Origin: Desulfobacteraceae bacterium
Lineage (GTDB): Bacteria > Desulfobacterota > DSM-4660 > Desulfatiglandales > Desulfatiglandaceae
DNA: 8,670 bases
Assembly: GCA_013203065.1 (NCBI GenBank)
Contig: JABMQV010000379.1
Coordinates: forward strand, 1-8,670
Direction: 5' to 3'
Under the pieces are notes generated by a model. The model did no database searches. It worked only from the letters and a program-made list of their open reading frames with translations, and was not told where the DNA came from. The stretch's first letter is position 1, and each line of letters starts with the position of its first letter. Positions 1,218 to 8,265 of the stretch are shown here, one piece after another. A program made the position numbers and the translations under genes.

Positions 1218-2540
1218 ATGAACAACACATTGCTGACATTTCCGAAGGGCGGTGTGCACCCTCGCGAATCAAAGGAATTGACAGAACACCTGCCCATAGA
1301 AACGCTCCCCGTCCCCGAAGAGGTGGAAATCCTGCTAAGCCAACACTTCGGCGCACCATGTGAACCGTTGGTCAAGAAAAAAGATCAGGTCGCCGAAGGT
1401 GATGTAATCGGGGAAGTGGAGGCAGGCCTCGGGGCCAGTATCCATGCGAGCGTTTCAGGAAAGATAAAAAATATCGCCGCCTCTGCAAACCCCGTATCCA
1501 TCAGTTCCCCATCCATTTTTATTCAGACCGACCCTGAGGCCAAACCAAAGGTGAATACCCCCTGCAATTGGAATGACCTTTCAAGAAAAGAACTCCTTGG
1601 GAGGGTCAAAAACGCCGGCATTGTCGGGATCGGGGGGGCCGGCTTTCCCACCCATGTGAAGCTCTCCCCGCCGCCCGAGGCCGAGGTGGACACCCTGATC
1701 CTGAACGGAGCGGAGTGCGAACCGTATCTCACCACCGACCATCGCACAATGCTTGAACATCCCGAGGAGGTTATTGAAGGCGCCAAAATCATCCTGGCCA
1801 TCCTTGGGATAGAGAAATGCCACATCGGAATAGAGGCAAACAAATCCGATGCCATAGAGAAAATGAAAAGGGTCTCCCGCGAGATCTCTTCAAATGGCTT
1901 TCGAATCTCCATAGACCCCTTAACGGTCAAGTACCCGCAGGGATCGGAAAAGCAGCTTATCGAAAGCATCACCGGCAGACGTGTCCCGGGTTTCGGGCTG
2001 CCGTTCGACGTGGGGGTAATCGTTCAGAACGTGGGCACTGCCCGGGCCATCTATGAGGCAGTGGTCCTGAAAAAGCCCTTGTATGAAAAGGTCGTCACCA
2101 TATCCGGCCGCGGCATAGAGCGGCCCGCCAACTTGCGGGTGAGGATTGGGACCAAGCTGAGTGATATTGTGTCATTCCTGGGCGGGACAAGGCCGGACCT
2201 GGCCAAGGTGGTCATGGGCGGTCCCATGATGGGATTTGCCATACCGACGCTTGACATTCCGGTCACAAAGACCACATCCGGTGTCCTTTTCCTAACAAAC
2301 GATGAAATCGACACCAATCCCCATGGTCAGTGTATCCGTTGCGGATGGTGCCTGGATGCCTGCCCCATGGGACTCTCCCCCAATGAAATCGGTATCTATG
2401 TGGAAGGTGGACGTGCTGAAGAGACTTCACAGTTTGGTCTGTTTGAGTGTTTTGAGTGCGGCTGTTGCGCATACGCCTGTCCAGCCAAACGGCCCCTGGT
2501 ACAATTCATCCGGCTTGCCAAAATGAAGGCCAGGAAATAG
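1218..2540 (+). CDS. rnfC: Rnf complex subunit RnfC (NADH/FMN- and Fe-S-binding)
   Basis: RnfC is the peripheral cytoplasmic subunit where electrons are exchanged with NAD(H). The N-terminus reads TFPKGGVHPRESKELT, as in the family. A biotinyl-lipoyl-like domain follows (about 60-110). The nucleotide/flavin fold shows GIVGIGGAGFPTH at 134-146 and NGAECEP at 163-169. Two [4Fe-4S] motifs lie near the C-terminus: C372/C375/C378/C382 and C411/C414/C417/C421. The protein is 440 aa with no C-terminal extension, a standard clostridial/Desulfobacterota-type RnfC. The ATG at 1218 matches the family start, but no clear Shine-Dalgarno precedes it, only cagatattatacaacag. It is the first gene of the operon and ends 20 bp before the proposed rnfD start. 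Confidence 0.96.
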   Translation: MNNTLLTFPKGGVHPRESKELTEHLPIETLPVPEEVEILLSQHFGAPCEPLVKKKDQVAEGDVIGEVEAGLGASIHASVSGKIKNIAASANPVSISSPSIFIQTDPEAKPKVNTPCNWNDLSRKELLGRVKNAGIVGIGGAGFPTHVKLSPPPEAEVDTLILNGAECEPYLTTDHRTMLEHPEEVIEGAKIILAILGIEKCHIGIEANKSDAIEKMKRVSREISSNGFRISIDPLTVKYPQGSEKQLIESITGRRVPGFGLPFDVGVIVQNVGTARAIYEAVVLKKPLYEKVVTISGRGIERPANLRVRIGTKLSDIVSFLGGTRPDLAKVVMGGPMMGFAIPTLDIPVTKTTSGVLFLTNDEIDTNPHGQCIRCGWCLDACPMGLSPNEIGIYVEGGRAEETSQFGLFECFECGCCAYACPAKRPLVQFIRLAKMKARK

Positions 2541-2546
2541 CGTCAT

Positions 2547-2551
2547 GGAGG
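2547..2551 (+). promoter_or_regulatory. GGAGG ribosome binding site pointing at an ATC start codon of rnfD
   Basis: A perfect GGAGG core lies 6 bp after the rnfC stop. Nine bases later comes ATC at 2561, in frame with rnfD. Between 2468 and 2653 the rnfD frame has no ATG, GTG or TTG. The out-of-frame ATG at 2545, inside the same stretch, opens only a three-codon peptide (M-E-D-stop). Confidence 0.45.
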
Positions 2552-2560
2552 ACTGAAGCC

Positions 2561-3616
2561 ATCGAAGAACAGGCAAAAAACGGTGCCCTTTCCGAGAGCA
2601 AAAATCCTTTATGGACGGTCTCTGTCTCTCCCCACATAAAGAGCGGGGAGTCGGTGGAAAGGATCATGTGGACCGTTGTGGGCTGTCTCCTCCCGCCCCT
2701 TATCCTTTCTGTCTTTATCTTCGGCTTCCAGACCCTCATTATCACACTGGTAAGTGTGGGGGCCTGTGTGGCCACCGAGGCCGTCACCCAGAAGCTCTTC
2801 CATCGCCCCATCACAATCAGAGACGGAAGTGCCGTCATTACAGGGCTCCTGTTGGCGTATATAATTCCTCCCGGGGTTTCCTATTGGACTCCCGTCCTGG
2901 GGGCCGTCATGGCCATATACGTAGCCAAACACCTGCTGGGCGGAATCGGGTTTAATATATTCAATCCTGCCCTTATTGGAAGGGCCTTCCTCGTCGCCAC
3001 GTTTCCCGTGGCCATGACCTCGGCCTGGCTCCCCCCCATTCGAGACGTTTCCATCTTCAAATATATGGGTCCGGGGATAGATGCCATATCCACTGCCACG
3101 CCCCTCTATGTACTCAAGCATTACGGTATTCAGGCCGTGATAGAGAAGTTTGGGTCCATGTCCTCCATTTATGGCGATTTCTTTATCGGCTGGAGGCCGG
3201 GGTGTATTGGCGAAACTTCGGCGCTCCTGCTCCTGCTTGGAGGCCTTTACCTCCTCTACAAAAGGTACATCACCTGGCATATCCCGGTATCCGTCATCAT
3301 CACCATTGCGTTTCTTACCTGGGTGTTTGGCGGAGAAAAACTATTCACGGGCAATCCCCTGCTGGCCATTCTCTCAGGAGGGGTAATGCTCGGGGCATTC
3401 TTTATGGCCACCGATTATGTGACCTCCCCGACCCAGCCGGCCGGGAAACTCATTTTCGGGGCAGGGATAGGTGCCCTGACTGTCCTTATCCGATTTAAGG
3501 GGGGGTATCCGGAAGGGATCTGTTATGCCATCTTGCTTATGAACCCCATGGCACCGGCCCTTGAGGGCTGGTTTCGCCCCAAACGTTTTGCCCCGGAAAA
3601 AGGTGCCGTCAGATGA
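2561..3616 (+). CDS. rnfD: Rnf complex membrane subunit RnfD (covalent FMN); start codon non-canonical or frameshifted
   Basis: RnfD is a polytopic membrane protein holding a covalent FMN. The family's SPHIKS motif is at 23-28 (numbering from 2561), IFNPALIGRAFL around 133-144, STATPL with the flavinylation Thr at 180, and MATDYVTSPTQPAG and FKGGYPEGICYAILLMN near the C-terminus. From 2561 the protein is 351 aa, close to family length. The start is uncertain. The only in-frame ATG/TTG codons are at 2456 and 2465, deep inside the conserved C-terminus of rnfC, and the next is a GTG at 2654, after SPHIKS. A GGAGG lies 9 nt before ATC 2561, which I use as the best guess. Alternatively, removing one base near 2554 would join the ATG at 2545 to this frame. 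It overlaps rnfG by 4 bp (ATGA). Confidence 0.93.
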   Translation: MEEQAKNGALSESKNPLWTVSVSPHIKSGESVERIMWTVVGCLLPPLILSVFIFGFQTLIITLVSVGACVATEAVTQKLFHRPITIRDGSAVITGLLLAYIIPPGVSYWTPVLGAVMAIYVAKHLLGGIGFNIFNPALIGRAFLVATFPVAMTSAWLPPIRDVSIFKYMGPGIDAISTATPLYVLKHYGIQAVIEKFGSMSSIYGDFFIGWRPGCIGETSALLLLLGGLYLLYKRYITWHIPVSVIITIAFLTWVFGGEKLFTGNPLLAILSGGVMLGAFFMATDYVTSPTQPAGKLIFGAGIGALTVLIRFKGGYPEGICYAILLMNPMAPALEGWFRPKRFAPEKGAVR

Positions 3617-4521
3617 GAGAAATCATCCGGATAACAGTGTCCCTCACCGTCTCCTGCTTGATCGCTGCCCTGGTGATGGGGTCGGTCTTTATCATCACCG
3701 ACAAGGCAAAACGGCACAATGAGCAGCTCAATATCCAGCAGACCATGCTCGGTCTCCTGGGATATGGAAAGGACAACCCTGTGCCATCCGACCTGGAGTT
3801 TTACACCATCTATCGTTACATCATTGAGGATGGGGAGATTAAGACCGTTGGATATATGGTCCCGGTGGGGGCTGGGGGCAAGGAGAGCTATGAACTGGTG
3901 ACCATGAATTTGGCAGGGCAATTCGTTGATCGAATCAGTTTAGACATTACACCCGAAAGTGCCTCCGAACCTCCGGAGCGCAAATCAGCGTTGACGTCCG
4001 TACTAAAGCCGCCCAAGAAATTTGTCTATGCCGACGCCACGATCATTGCAGAACGGGGAGACAAGCGCCTGGCCTATCTTCTCCCCGGAGAATTCCCAGG
4101 GTTCAAGACCTTTATCCATGTGATGCTGGCGCTGGACCCCACTTTTACCATCATCGGACTGGATATCACGGAACATGAAGAAGACCCCGGGCTGGGGGGA
4201 GAAATCCAAGAGGATTATTTCAAAAATCAGTTCAAGGGGAAATCCTTTGAAAGAACCAAAAATCTCACCGTCGTAAAGGAACCCCTCCCGGACGAATACA
4301 AAAAATATCTGGAAGCCGGCAAGGGAGAGGGGCTATCCAAAGGGGTCGTCGATGCCATAAGGACCCAATATCTGGACCGGGATATCTATTCCCTTACCGG
4401 TGCAACCATCTCCAGTAAGGCCGTCACGAATGGTGTAAAAAACATGATCAACAAATTTGCCTATCGCTTGAACATACTGGATAGTGTAATTGAACGTCAG
4501 CACATCCCGGTCGCCTTTTAG
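3613..4521 (+). CDS. rnfG: Rnf complex subunit RnfG (covalent FMN, periplasm-facing), enlarged form
   Basis: RnfG has one N-terminal membrane helix (about 7-28) and an FMN-binding domain outside the cytoplasm. The flavinylation motif SLTGATISSKAV contains Thr265, the residue to which ApbE attaches FMN through a phosphoester. The upstream conserved element EHEEDPGLGGEI (187-198) corresponds to the family's HxETPGLG, with Asp instead of Thr, followed by FKNQFKGK. At 302 aa it is about 100 aa longer than the roughly 200 aa of typical RnfG. The extra length lies mainly between the membrane helix and the FMN domain (about 40-170), including a polar stretch rich in Pro/Glu/Ser at 115-125. The start is fixed by the ATGA overlap with the rnfD stop. 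Confidence 0.95.
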   Translation: MREIIRITVSLTVSCLIAALVMGSVFIITDKAKRHNEQLNIQQTMLGLLGYGKDNPVPSDLEFYTIYRYIIEDGEIKTVGYMVPVGAGGKESYELVTMNLAGQFVDRISLDITPESASEPPERKSALTSVLKPPKKFVYADATIIAERGDKRLAYLLPGEFPGFKTFIHVMLALDPTFTIIGLDITEHEEDPGLGGEIQEDYFKNQFKGKSFERTKNLTVVKEPLPDEYKKYLEAGKGEGLSKGVVDAIRTQYLDRDIYSLTGATISSKAVTNGVKNMINKFAYRLNILDSVIERQHIPVAF

Positions 4522-4535: not shown

Positions 4536-5162
4536 TTGCCGGCCACTACCAAGACAAATCCTCAGCTGTTATTTAATGGAATACTGGGCGAGAACCCCAT
4601 TTTCCGTCTGGCCCTCTCCATGTGTCCGGCGGTTGGAATAAGCACAACCGTCATGAATGGCCTCCTGCTGGGGATCGCCGTCTTGTTTGTCCAGGTATTT
4701 TCCAGTTGCACCATTGCTGCCATCAAAAACCATATCCACCCCCGGATCCGCATCCCCACCTATACCCTTACCATTGCAACGTGGGTAACCGTCATTGACC
4801 TGGTCCTTGCCGCTTACGTGCCTGAGGCCTATAAACAGATGGGCATCTTTGTCAAACTGATCGTGGCCTTCGCCATAATTACCATGCGGTTGGAGACATT
4901 TGCCTGCAAGAACTCCGTCAACGCCTCCTTTTGGGACGGTCTGGGTATGGGGCTCGGGTTTCTGTTCGGGATGATGGCCCTTGGGTTCGTAAGAGAATTG
5001 CTGGGGATGGGGACCGTTTTCGGATACGATATCCTGGGGTTCCGGCCACTCCTTTTCTTTATCCTGCCTGCCGCCGGTTTCTTTTGCGTGGGTTTTATGA
5101 TGGCCATGTTCAATTATATAGAAATCGCTGTTAACCGGAAAAAACGGGCTAGAACGTCATGA
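4536..5162 (+). CDS. rnfE: Rnf complex membrane subunit RnfE, lacking the second conserved cluster cysteine
   Basis: RnfE is a six-helix membrane protein of the NqrD/RnfE family that pairs with RnfA; together they hold a membrane [2Fe-2S] cluster on two Cys from each subunit. Here the first Cys is present (C30 in LALSMCPAVGIST). The second is not. The E. coli RsxE segment [18 protein letters not shown] aligns without gaps with GIFVKLIVAFAIITMRLE (103-120), so Asn-Cys is Phe112-Ala113. An extra Cys124 lies in FACKNS, where the family has Ala or Ser, and another extra Cys at 58. The rest, such as DGLGMGLG and FVRELLGMG, is typical, as is the 208-aa length. Start is TTG. It overlaps rnfA by 4 bp (ATGA). 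Confidence 0.95.
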   Translation: MPATTKTNPQLLFNGILGENPIFRLALSMCPAVGISTTVMNGLLLGIAVLFVQVFSSCTIAAIKNHIHPRIRIPTYTLTIATWVTVIDLVLAAYVPEAYKQMGIFVKLIVAFAIITMRLETFACKNSVNASFWDGLGMGLGFLFGMMALGFVRELLGMGTVFGYDILGFRPLLFFILPAAGFFCVGFMMAMFNYIEIAVNRKKRARTS

Positions 5163-6121
5163 AGATTAATAGCCGCACCCTCTTCACTCTGAGCGCATTG
5201 GTTCTCCTGTGTCTCTTTTTGTTGACCGGGTGCAGGCAGGAACATCGCTTTATTAAAAAAACGGCATTCAAAGATGCGAACAGTATCGTGATTACCTTTG
5301 CGGGACCGGTTGACGAGGGATGGGCAAAAGATATCTCCAAATATACTGTTTATGAGAAACCGGATCCCGACATCAAGCTCAAGATCACACAAGCGGGTCT
5401 AAGCCACGACAAAAAGACGGTGACCTTGCGCTTTGAAGGGAACCTGAATCAGGACCAGCCCCATATGCTCGCCATGAGCCAAATCACATCCGAAGGGAGG
5501 TCCCTGGGGTCCGCCTTTGTGAGCGTCAAGAAGCTCTATTTAGGGTATCTCTTTTCAGTGCTTATTGGAGCGATGATCATCAATAATTTTGTCTTTGCAA
5601 AATATCTGGGGCTATGCGTGTTCTTCGGGACTTCACAAAAGAAATCCACTGCCATCGGGATGGGGATTACGTTCACCATTGTCATGGTTTTCAGTGCAAT
5701 GATGGCATGGTTCCTCTATCAGTTCGTCCTGAAACCCTATCGGCTCGATTTCCTTGAGATAGTGGTATTTATCGGTCTGGTTTCTCTTTCGGTCCAGGCG
5801 GTTGACACCATCCTGCGGAAGGTCAATCCCATGCTTTTTAAGGCGTTCGGGGTCTACCTGGTCCTGGTGATTGCCAATTGTATCATTATCGCTGTCCCTT
5901 TGACCCTTGCAGCCAATGGATATAATGCCATGGAGAGCCTTATGCTGGCCTTTGGCGCAGGAATGGGGTTTTTGATCGCCCTCTTTCTCATGTCCTCTGT
6001 GAGGGAGAGGCTTGAACTGGCCAATGTCCCCCGGTCCTACCGGGGGCTCCCCATCGCCTTTGTGGTTGCAGGTCTCTTTGCCCTGGCTTTTTTGGGCTTT
6101 TCCGGTATGTCGATTTTTTGA
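5159..6121 (+). CDS. rnfA: RnfA membrane subunit fused to an N-terminal lipoprotein signal and Ig-like domain
   Basis: The C-terminal part (about 126-320) is a normal RnfA: INNFVFAKYLGLC with Cys153, VQAVDTIL, IANC with Cys241, and ELANVPRSYRGLPIAF before the last helix. Both cluster cysteines are present; the CPF of the family is CVF. The family is normally about 190-200 aa; this protein is 320. The extra N-terminus starts with a basic and hydrophobic signal ending in lipobox LLTGC (21-25; Cys25 would be lipidated). A beta-rich segment follows (about 30-125), with SIVITFAGPVDEGWAKDISKY and KKTVTLRFEGNL, resembling SbsA/Big_5-type Ig-like domains. RnfA/NqrE proteins are thought to have a periplasmic N-terminus, so a periplasmic fusion is topologically plausible. 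The start is fixed by the ATGA overlap with rnfE, and no internal start with a ribosome site is obvious before the RnfA core. Function of the added domain is unknown. Confidence 0.93.
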   Translation: MKINSRTLFTLSALVLLCLFLLTGCRQEHRFIKKTAFKDANSIVITFAGPVDEGWAKDISKYTVYEKPDPDIKLKITQAGLSHDKKTVTLRFEGNLNQDQPHMLAMSQITSEGRSLGSAFVSVKKLYLGYLFSVLIGAMIINNFVFAKYLGLCVFFGTSQKKSTAIGMGITFTIVMVFSAMMAWFLYQFVLKPYRLDFLEIVVFIGLVSLSVQAVDTILRKVNPMLFKAFGVYLVLVIANCIIIAVPLTLAANGYNAMESLMLAFGAGMGFLIALFLMSSVRERLELANVPRSYRGLPIAFVVAGLFALAFLGFSGMSIF

Positions 6122-6262: not shown

Positions 6263-7129
6263 ATGGATCCAACACTTGTAAAACTGGCCCTGGGTGGCCT
6301 GGCCGTCTTGGGCTGTATAGGCATCTTTTTCGGCATTGGGCTTGCCTTGGCAGCCTATAAATTCGCCGTGGAGGCCAACCCAAAAGTGGAAGAGGTCCTG
6401 GAAGTCCTGGCGGGTGCCCAGTGAGGGGGGTGCGGCTTCCCTGGATGTGAAGCATATGCCGAAGCGGTCGTCAATGAACCTGATGTCGCCCCAACCCTCT
6501 GCTTCCCGGGCAAGGCTGAGGTGGCCGAGATGGTTGCAGAGATATCGGGCAAGAAAATGGCTGCCGTGGAAGATATGGTCGCCGCTGTTCGCTGTTCAAG
6601 GATTGAGGGCAGGGTTCAGAAAAAACTGGCCTACATCGGGTATGATTCATGCACTGCCGCCAACCTGGCCTTTGGGGGACCTGCTGCCTGCCGGTATGCC
6701 TGCGTAGGGCTGGGGGAATGTGCCCAAAGCTGCCCCTTTGACGCTATCACCCTGGTGAACGATTTTCCCGTGGTGGCTACCGGGCTCTGCGTGGGCTGCG
6801 GTACCTGTGTCCGCACCTGTCCCAAGGGCATCATTGAGCTCATGCCTGTGAAGGCCAGGGTGTGGGTCCCCTGCAGCACCAAAGATCCGGGCAAGGCGGT
6901 CAAGCAGGTTTGTGAAGTCGGGTGTATCGCCTGTAAGATGTGCGTCAAATCATGTCCTGCAAAGGCTGTAAGCCTGGAGGACAGCGTCGTACAGGTTGAC
7001 CACCAAAAATGCATGGACTATGGTCCGGAATGTGAGGAAATATGTGTGGAAAAGTGCCCGAGAGATATCTTCAGACATTACCGGATCACTGAAGAGACTG
7101 AGCGACAAATTCATACGGCAGCAGCTTAG
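6263..7129 (+). CDS. rnfB: RnfB, poly-[4Fe-4S] subunit, probable selenoprotein (UGA read as Sec54)
   Basis: RnfB accepts electrons from reduced ferredoxin and passes them through several Fe-S clusters. The frame opens at ATG 6263 with a membrane anchor (about 5-32), reaches TGA at codon 54, and continues open in the same frame to TAG 7127-7129, giving 288 aa. E. coli RsxB reads QCGQCGYPGC where this protein reads Q-UGA-GGCGFPGC, so the UGA replaces the first Cys of the N-terminal cluster motif; the other ligands C57, C62 and C80 are present with family spacing. Beyond it lie GYDSC...GGPAAC, a ferredoxin-like pair of motifs (C147/C153/C157 and C176/C179/C182/C186), CEVGCIACKMCVKSCP (217-232) and a last group C250/C257/C261/C265. 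UGA is a true stop for rnfD, rnfE and rnfA, so general recoding is excluded. A standard gene caller would report only 6521-7129 from an internal GTG. No strong ribosome site precedes ATG 6263. Confidence 0.9.
6422..6424 (+). other. In-frame UGA, probable selenocysteine codon (Sec54 of RnfB)
   Basis: TGA lies in frame between the anchor and the Fe-S domains of RnfB, exactly at an invariant cluster-ligand cysteine codon. Cys-to-Sec exchange at a conserved Cys, an intact downstream frame of 234 codons and a hairpin directly downstream are the usual marks of a bacterial selenoprotein. A single-base sequencing error (TGC or TGT to TGA) is the main alternative. Confidence 0.8.
6429..6460 (+). promoter_or_regulatory. 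Bacterial SECIS-like stem-loop just after the UGA
   Basis: GCUUC (6435-6439) pairs perfectly with GAAGC (6449-6453) around loop CCUGGAUGU. The lower stem can continue through G6429-C6460 and G6430-C6459 plus wobble pairs, with a C/A mismatch and one bulged A. The loop starts 15 nt after the UGA, or 17 nt if C6441-G6447 also pairs, leaving loop UGGAU. A small loop with G residues at this distance fits the known bacterial SECIS layout recognised by SelB. The fold was drawn by eye. Confidence 0.6.
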
Positions 7130-7203: not shown

Positions 7204-8265
7204 ATGGAAAAGATGAACACCTTACCTAACACGGGGGGGCCCATGAATCGAAGGGCCTTTTTGAGGCTATCCGGTCTCCTTGGCCTGGGGGTGGCTTCTG
7301 GCGGGATCGTACCTGCCGCGGCCGAGGCGGTCAAATTCAATGGCAAATTGTATAAAATCTCAAAGACCAGGCTGGCCATGGGCACATTTGTCTCCATGAC
7401 CCTTATCCATCCCTCCCGGGATGAGGCGCAAGCGGCTATGGGATTGGCATTTGAGGAGATCGACCGGCTGACTCGGACCATGAGCCGTTTTGATGATACA
7501 ACCGCAGTTGCCCAACTAAACAAGGAAGGGCGCCTCAGTGACGTCCCCCCTGAAGTTGCCCAAGTGGTTGCCCGGGGACTGGGCTATTACCGGCTGAGCC
7601 GGGGGAACTTCGATATCTCTGTCAAGCCCATAGTAGATCTCTTCAGGGAAACGTTCGACTCCGGAAAGGACACCCCGCCCTCCGAGAGCGAAGTAGATAA
7701 GGCCCTGGTGCTTGTGGGTTCGGATATGATTGAACTGGACGGCCGTACCCTCCGGTTTCGGAAGCCGGGAATGGGGATTACCCTGGATGGTATTGCAAAG
7801 GGCTACATTGTTGACAGGGCCTCCCAAATCCTGACAAAGCATAATATCCGGAATCACCTGATTAATGCCGGCGGTGATATCAGGACAACGGGCCTCAGCC
7901 GCGGCAAGAGACCATGGACCATTGCCATTCAGGACCCCAAGAAACAGAAAAAGTATCCTGATATTATAAAGATGACTGACGGGGCCGTTGCCACCTCCGG
8001 GAACTACGAGGTCTATTTTGATCGGGAGAAAATGTTCCATCACATCGTGAACCCCGACACGGGCCGTTCGCCGGAGGCAAGTACCAGTGTGTCGGTCATT
8101 GCCGACACCACCATGGACGCGGATGCCCTTTCCACCAGCGTATTTGTGATGAACCCCGTCCGGGGGACGCGTTTTATCAACACGCTTCCAAGGTGTGAAT
8201 GCCTTGTGATTGCCAGGGGTGGTGAGAAGTTCACGTCCGCAGGGTGGAAGAGCGCGGCCACATAA
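7204..8265 (+). CDS. apbE: FAD:protein FMN transferase ApbE with a Tat signal peptide
   Basis: ApbE moves FMN from FAD to a threonine of partner proteins; next to rnf genes its targets are RnfG (Thr265) and RnfD (STATPL). Family motifs are MGTFVSMTLIHP, MSRFDDTTAVAQLN, TLDGIAKGYIVD (D195, K199), INAGGDIRTTG (220-230), ATSGNYEVY, HHIVNPDTG (279-287) and ADALSTSVFVM (metal-binding D307 region). At 353 aa it is of normal length. The N-terminus reads NRRAFLRLSG (15-24), then a hydrophobic stretch and AAAEA-V (cleavage likely after Ala42). This is a twin-arginine signal, implying export of a folded, possibly cofactor-loaded enzyme; no lipobox is present. It lies 74 bp after rnfB, and its last 35 bp overlap the end of hflX on the other strand. 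Confidence 0.96.
   Translation: MEKMNTLPNTGGPMNRRAFLRLSGLLGLGVASGGIVPAAAEAVKFNGKLYKISKTRLAMGTFVSMTLIHPSRDEAQAAMGLAFEEIDRLTRTMSRFDDTTAVAQLNKEGRLSDVPPEVAQVVARGLGYYRLSRGNFDISVKPIVDLFRETFDSGKDTPPSESEVDKALVLVGSDMIELDGRTLRFRKPGMGITLDGIAKGYIVDRASQILTKHNIRNHLINAGGDIRTTGLSRGKRPWTIAIQDPKKQKKYPDIIKMTDGAVATSGNYEVYFDREKMFHHIVNPDTGRSPEASTSVSVIADTTMDADALSTSVFVMNPVRGTRFINTLPRCECLVIARGGEKFTSAGWKSAAT

Follow-up and report, generated by a model that had tools for sequence, protein, structure and literature searches.

Organisation of the rnf operon

The window, by which we mean the whole 8,670-nucleotide stretch of DNA analysed here, contains an rnf operon with the gene order rnfC-D-G-E-A-B plus apbE, as assigned by profile matches, and the rnfB gene that concerns us is part of it. 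The features referred to throughout are as follows.

204-1127: ribF-like gene, the first gene listed in the window
1218-2540, + strand: rnfC (TIGR01945, 535 bits)
2567-3616, + strand: rnfD (PF03116, 375 bits), with an ambiguous start codon within the open reading frame 2456-3616
3613-4521, + strand: rnfG, long form (PF04205, 54.5 bits; TIGR01947, 61.7 bits, under the cut-off of 102)
4536-5162, + strand: rnfE (NF009070, 214.6 bits against a cut-off of 184)
5159-6121, + strand: rnfA with an N-terminal extension (PF02508, 155 bits; TIGR01943, 190 bits over residues 131-317, under the cut-off of 229)
6263-7129, + strand: rnfB, predicted selenoprotein, 288 aa with the UGA read through
6422-6424, + strand: in-frame TGA, codon 54, predicted selenocysteine (Sec); same codon in 28 further genes
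6431-6433, + strand: Cys57, predicted cluster ligand, Cys in all covered rows
6434-6454, + strand: SECIS-like hairpin region, GGCUUC-CC-UGGAU-GU-GAAGC(A)
6442-6446, + strand: loop UGGAU of the SECIS-like hairpin, at a spacing of 17 nt from the UGA
6446-6448, + strand: Cys62, predicted cluster ligand, Cys in all covered rows
6500-6502, + strand: Cys80, predicted cluster ligand, Cys in all covered rows
7204-8265, + strand: apbE, FMN transferase (PF02424, 260 bits)
Last in the gene list of the window, - strand: partial GTPase gene

Two of the subunits are unusual in their own right. RnfG is long, at 302 aa, and scores under the cut-off of the RnfG models. RnfA carries an extension of some 125 aa (window 5159-5550) ahead of the Rnf-Nqr domain, with a signal-peptide and lipobox-like start and a weak match to the Ig-like Big_5 domain (E 0.027, under cut-off). 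Of the loci L001-L014, 13 have a comparable extension and the fourteenth (L005) gave no rnfA; none of the 22 RnfA-matching loci among L015-L038 has one, L018 and L034 lacking an RnfA match.

RnfB is predicted to be read through a UGA at the leading ligand position of its first cluster motif

Translation of 6263-7129 gives one frame of 288 residues on read-through, with a terminal TAG and a single internal TGA, as the sequence-only reading had described. Its identity as RnfB is firm: the protein scores 437 bits with the model NF005503 ('RnfABCDGE type electron transport complex subunit B'), whose cut-off is 252, and finds RnfB chains among solved structures, namely 7zc6_B of C. tetanomorphum (E 4e-55) and 9eri_B (E 1e-53), the latter presumably RnfB of Acetobacterium woodii. 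The first [4Fe-4S] domain has its four-Cys motif in the form U-x2-C-x4-C-x17-C (U54, C57, C62, C80), with UGA replacing the first Cys and the other three positions occupied by Cys in all covered rows. When C was substituted for U at residue 54, phmmer aligned this residue to the first motif Cys of the solved chains 7zc6_B, 9eri_B and 8ahx_B, in agreement with the earlier placement of the UGA at a ligand cysteine. The window genes rnfD, rnfE and rnfA all terminate in TGA, showing that this codon also serves as a stop here.

The UGA codon is shared by a group of related genomes

A scan of genome contigs returned 40 rnfB loci, in which codon 54 is TGA in nine and TGT or TGC in 29, the site falling outside the remaining two. 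All nine TGA loci come from Desulfobacteraceae, Desulfobacterales or Deltaproteobacteria bacteria. Since nine loci carry TGA at this codon and 29 carry TGT or TGC, the TGA is not a chance occurrence.

The comparison was extended to the 85 genomes in the order of the window's closest relative (G002); its class gave the same 85. At a threshold of E<=1e-60, RnfB of the window's type was found in 30 of these genomes (31 genes). Codon 54 is TGA in 28 genes from 27 genomes and Cys in three genomes (G013, G033 and G053), bringing the UGA genes to 29 with the window included. RnfB of G002 (locus L002) is 98% identical to that of the window, and the two may represent one species. One genome, G005, holds two Sec-type rnfB genes (L005 and L044) on different contigs. 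A second TGA in L055 was considered as a further Sec codon and rejected, as it is codon 289, at the end of a 288-residue protein, and is read as a stop. The Cys gene L080 also has a TGA near its end.

Selection acts on the sequence beyond the UGA. When the 28 other genes were compared with the window across as many as 175 codons beyond the UGA (91 codons for L070), pN values were 0.010-0.227 and pS values 0.081-0.953, with pN below pS in 28 of 28 comparisons, which indicates purifying selection on the downstream frame. The proposal that rnfB encodes a selenoprotein, with Sec at this very site, gains the support of comparative data: UGA and Cys alternate at codon 54 among homologues in related genomes.

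Gene callers usually stop at UGA. All the other homologues examined that cover the site have Cys, both in 45 distinct loci and in the 120 proteins listed out of 663; because of the behaviour of gene callers, the 120 proteins say little about how frequent Sec is. Outside the 85-genome group no Sec-RnfB was found in two phylum draws of 395 genomes, all TGA matches in these draws falling within the group. Nearly all the genomes shown were common to both draws, so that they are not independent samples; up to six candidates were scored per genome, and the matches numbered 21 at E<=1e-60 and eight at 1e-80.

A further and distant RnfB match (36-43% identity, no inner stops) is present in each of genomes G001-G008 and G013. 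These frames span 688-769 codons in eight genomes and 410 in G001, and they possibly belong to the long-RnfB type mentioned in the available text of PMC5109826.

Selenocysteine machinery in the Sec-RnfB genomes

The sequence-only reading had tied its proposal to the presence of selA, selB, selC and selD. These were seen in the relatives: among the 27 Sec-RnfB genomes, selB over cut-off was found in 23, selA in 23, selD in 21 and tRNA-Sec, counted at 55 bits or more, in 24. All four components are present in 14 of the 27, including G002, and every genome has at least two. Over all genomes searched, matches over cut-off were obtained for selB in 29 of 34, selA in 26 of 30, selD in 23 of 30 and tRNA-Sec in 31 of 34. 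Weak tRNA-Sec matches were left uncounted because the RF01852 threshold is also passed by 5 of 14 control genomes and is barely reached by G051, and a clear tRNA-Sec match is missing in three of the 27. Such gaps in the machinery would be expected, as many of the matches sit on short contigs. As positive controls, each of 24 selD matches (24/24) contains one TGA, as does the sole match of G002 to the formate dehydrogenase alpha subunit (Fdh-alpha) over cut-off, which is as expected of Sec-decoding bacteria.

In five genomes (G058, G057, G055, G006 and G033; loci L097-L101) a selB match lies near a tRNA-Sec with a UCA anticodon that scores 55.8-59 bits and whose sequence is unlike that of G002. 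A second, higher-scoring tRNA-Sec lies elsewhere in all of these except G057, and a further full-length selB match is present in G058, G057 and G033. Two Sec systems may coexist in one cell in the genomes of L097-L101.

A SECIS-like hairpin follows the UGA codon

Counting the U of UGA as +0, most UGA genes share the consensus GGCUU(C/U)(G/C)C-NGGNU-G(C/U)GA(A/G)GCN from +12 to +32. The bacterial SECIS model, in the available text of PMC13188914, describes a stem of 4-16 bp, a loop of 3-9 nt with a G in the first two loop positions, and a spacing of 16-37 nt from the UGA. We compared the UGA genes with this model on stem, loop, G position and spacing. Their hairpin has a spacing of 17 nt and the loop NGGNU, and in 16 of the 29 genes an unbroken stem of 6-8 bp adjoins the loop, in agreement with the stem, loop and spacing of the model. 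Another 11, including the window, carry a C.U or C.C mismatch that is separated from the loop by a single pair and has 5-6 bp under it, and L054 deviates with an A.A mismatch. L070 has the UGA and no SECIS-like hairpin, carries Tyr59 and Gly64 and lies at a contig edge; it could be a recent gain of UGA, a case of a different SECIS or an assembly problem.

Folding energies were compared with shuffles in which codons were resampled by each gene's own synonymous usage. Over the 23-nt hairpin region the 29 UGA genes average -9.27 kcal/mol, against -6.27 kcal/mol in the shuffles (z -6.4), and none of 300 shuffles is as low; this treats the 29 genes as independent, some being near-identical (the window and L002; L047 and L048). 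The same region in 45 Cys genes shows no extra stability over synonymous shuffles (z 0.3), nor does a control region further downstream (z 1.5). Pair counting gave a smaller excess than folding energy, with 6.76 of 8 pairs formed in UGA genes against a null of 6.43 (7 of 1000 shuffles as high), and no excess over the null in Cys genes. The expectation that a SECIS element would lie directly downstream of the UGA finds support, for a SECIS-like hairpin, in this stability signal over the set of UGA genes, with the hairpin of the window itself being weak. It comprises 5 bp, a C.U mismatch and one closing pair, with a modest local energy of -6.0 kcal/mol; in a 59-nt context the best fold of the window differs from the SECIS hairpin, and the region shows no gain in stability over shuffles (z 0.94).

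Slid versions of the structure reach no more than 50.9% paired cells, compared with 84.3% for the hairpin. RNAalifold prefers a longer stem joining columns 14-18 with 40-44, which we rejected as the SECIS on its weaker synonymous-shuffle signal (z -2.2, 4 of 300, against -6.4). No compensatory two-sided pair changes were found in the hairpin among the UGA genes, and since its pairs vary on one side only, the shuffle control for pair changes does not discriminate. An Rfam scan of the window gave just two weak matches, far under the gathering score.

Gly58 is encoded by GGC in 28 of 29 UGA genes, against 338 of the 969 Gly codons in those genes as a whole. Phe59 occurs in 27 of 29 UGA genes and in four of the 120 Cys proteins listed, Ala64 in 24 of 29 and nine of 120. 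These residue differences are partly phylogenetic, because Glu67, which lies outside the short stem, differs too (28 of 29 against 24 of the 120 listed) and because some Cys proteins close to the Sec genes share the hairpin residues: in 15 chosen near Sec genes in the tree, Phe59 is present in three and Ala64 in eight.

Sec and Cys forms in the tree

A quick tree was built from 88 rows, 29 of them Sec and 59 Cys, with residue 54 masked in the locus rows. It requires at least nine changes between Sec and Cys, just two of which are forced by well-supported branches. The Cys gene L013 keeps Phe59 and Ala64 and encodes Gly58 by GGA, which breaks a stem pair. This pattern would be expected of a Sec gene that has reverted to Cys.

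Discussion

We consider it likely that the UGA of rnfB is read as Sec by means of the downstream SECIS-like hairpin, and that this Sec is one of four ligands of a [4Fe-4S] cluster in a mobile, membrane-side domain of the protein. In the proposed mechanism SelB would bind the hairpin and deliver Sec-tRNA, leading to Sec insertion at codon 54, and Sec54 would then bind the cluster known as RnfB-1 or B8 together with Cys57, Cys62 and Cys80. We infer a selenolate ligand at this position because the alignment puts residue 54 on the leading Cys of the mobile FdI/B8 [4Fe-4S] domain; selenium would then bind iron, which may shift potential, kinetics or stability.

The corresponding domain has been described in two organisms. 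The FdI domain of C. tetanomorphum (residues 40-90), flanked by solvent-exposed linkers, is highly mobile; its RnfB-1 cluster, itself unresolved in the map, has been proposed to shuttle electrons from the RnfB chain on to RnfA/E (PMC9588780). The B8 domain of A. woodii (residues 30-100) carries a single [4Fe4S] cluster and comes close to AE1, the [2Fe2S] cluster that lies between RnfA and RnfE (PMC11889175). By analogy, the Sec-ligated cluster would receive electrons from the polyferredoxin chain of RnfB and hand them on to the [2Fe-2S] cluster situated between RnfA and RnfE. The most likely role of the selenolate would be to shift the potential of this gate cluster or to protect it from damage, and the Cys form would do equivalent work, in keeping with the way the two forms are interspersed in the tree. 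On balance we lean slightly towards a functional reading of this kind, in which, for Rnf pumps of this bacterial lineage, a selenolate ligand on the swinging [4Fe-4S] cluster that loads electrons into the membrane tunes the potential or the gating of ion pumping, and Sec and Cys replace each other at this ligand again and again between lineages.

Other explanations of the UGA were weighed against this one. Sec might be inserted with its selenium serving redox or repair chemistry in the manner of a thiol, for instance in an Se-S bond with a neighbouring Cys on loss of the cluster, and not as a normal ligand. The abstract of PMC9312934 presumes a redox function for most prokaryotic selenoprotein families, and UxxC motifs, of which U54-x2-C57 is one, are frequent among them (Table 1 of that paper); the high mobility of the FdI domain between its solvent-exposed linkers is also compatible with such a function. 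However, the four ligand positions are always Cys or Sec in the rows examined, the solved RnfB relatives have Cys at the site, and the A. woodii domain is described with a [4Fe-4S] cluster, such that we hold this explanation to be unlikely. We see only a slim prospect that the Sec codon is a selenium-dependent valve on Rnf synthesis, whereby translation without selenium would stop after 53 residues and Sec would offer no chemical advantage over Cys. The UGA does lie early in the gene, and Sec and Cys forms look interchangeable because they are intermingled in the quick tree. Yet the well-supported branches force just two of the nine changes in that tree, 27 of the 30 group genomes with this type of RnfB carry the Sec form, and among the rows examined Sec occurs only at the first ligand of the cluster.

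A lone TGA in an otherwise open frame would also be the mark of a sequencing error, a pseudogene or recoding as some other amino acid. This is very unlikely and we reject it, since for the family it is contradicted by the recurrence of TGA at codon 54 across many separately assembled genomes, by the purifying selection downstream, by the use of UGA as a stop in rnfD, rnfE and rnfA, and by the TGA within the SelD and Fdh-alpha genes of related genomes. We retain the reading of the UGA as a predicted Sec codon and of Sec54 as a probable cluster ligand.

If this reading is true, Sec would help to hold an electron-transfer [4Fe-4S] cluster as one of its ligands within an energy-conserving pump, and it would sit at the swinging step proposed as the coupling point between electron transfer and ion pumping. 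The repeated exchange of Sec and Cys would amount to a natural selenium/sulphur experiment on a respiratory cluster, and closely related Sec and Cys versions of a single protein would allow the effect of selenium on potential, stability and pumping to be measured directly. More generally, our findings suggest that RnfB is truncated in annotations that treat the UGA as a stop.

The sequence-only reading knew of no established Sec-RnfB, and here a correction is due: the family is already in print as a predicted selenoprotein, although the name RnfB was not found there. In their available text, PMC9312934 (Table 1) and PMC13188914 give the 'Fe-S cluster domain-containing protein' PRK07118/NF005503, with a UxxC motif, as a predicted selenoprotein, list ABC78902.1 (a Syntrophus aciditrophicus protein) and WP_258165141.1, and cite a 2008 GOS paper as the source. 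A term search of the main text of that 2008 paper, so far as available, gave no Rnf. RnfB named as a selenoprotein was not found in the titles and abstracts searched, and a mention may exist elsewhere. The family-level prediction for NF005503 was thus already known, and what is new, as far as the literature was searched, is the RnfB identity, the position at the shuttle cluster, the distribution within this lineage and the hairpin evidence.

Several known systems provide points of comparison. The listed PRK07118/NF005503 protein shares with the window protein its NCBIfam family and a UxxC motif of fitting spacing, a likeness at the level of family and motif; unlike the present reading, the listing names neither RnfB, nor the cluster, nor the complex. 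With the solved complexes 7zc6, 9eri and 8ahx_B ('complex subunit B') RnfB of the window aligns over the N-terminal helix and the first [4Fe-4S] motif, and with 7zc6_B and 9eri_B over most of the protein, yet all three have Cys at the first ligand where the window has UGA. A Sec has also been predicted in a related Rnf/Nqr-type complex, in NqrE (NADH:ubiquinone oxidoreductase subunit E, COG2209, TxxU; PMC9312934), which is an integral membrane subunit related to RnfA and not RnfB. Sec is known mainly from the active sites of oxidoreductases, according to the available text of PMC10779653, and in [NiFeSe] hydrogenase and Sec formate dehydrogenase it replaces a Cys metal ligand, as we propose for RnfB. 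In those enzymes, however, the metal belongs to a catalytic site containing Ni or Mo/W, whereas in RnfB the ligand would serve an electron-transfer [4Fe-4S] cluster.
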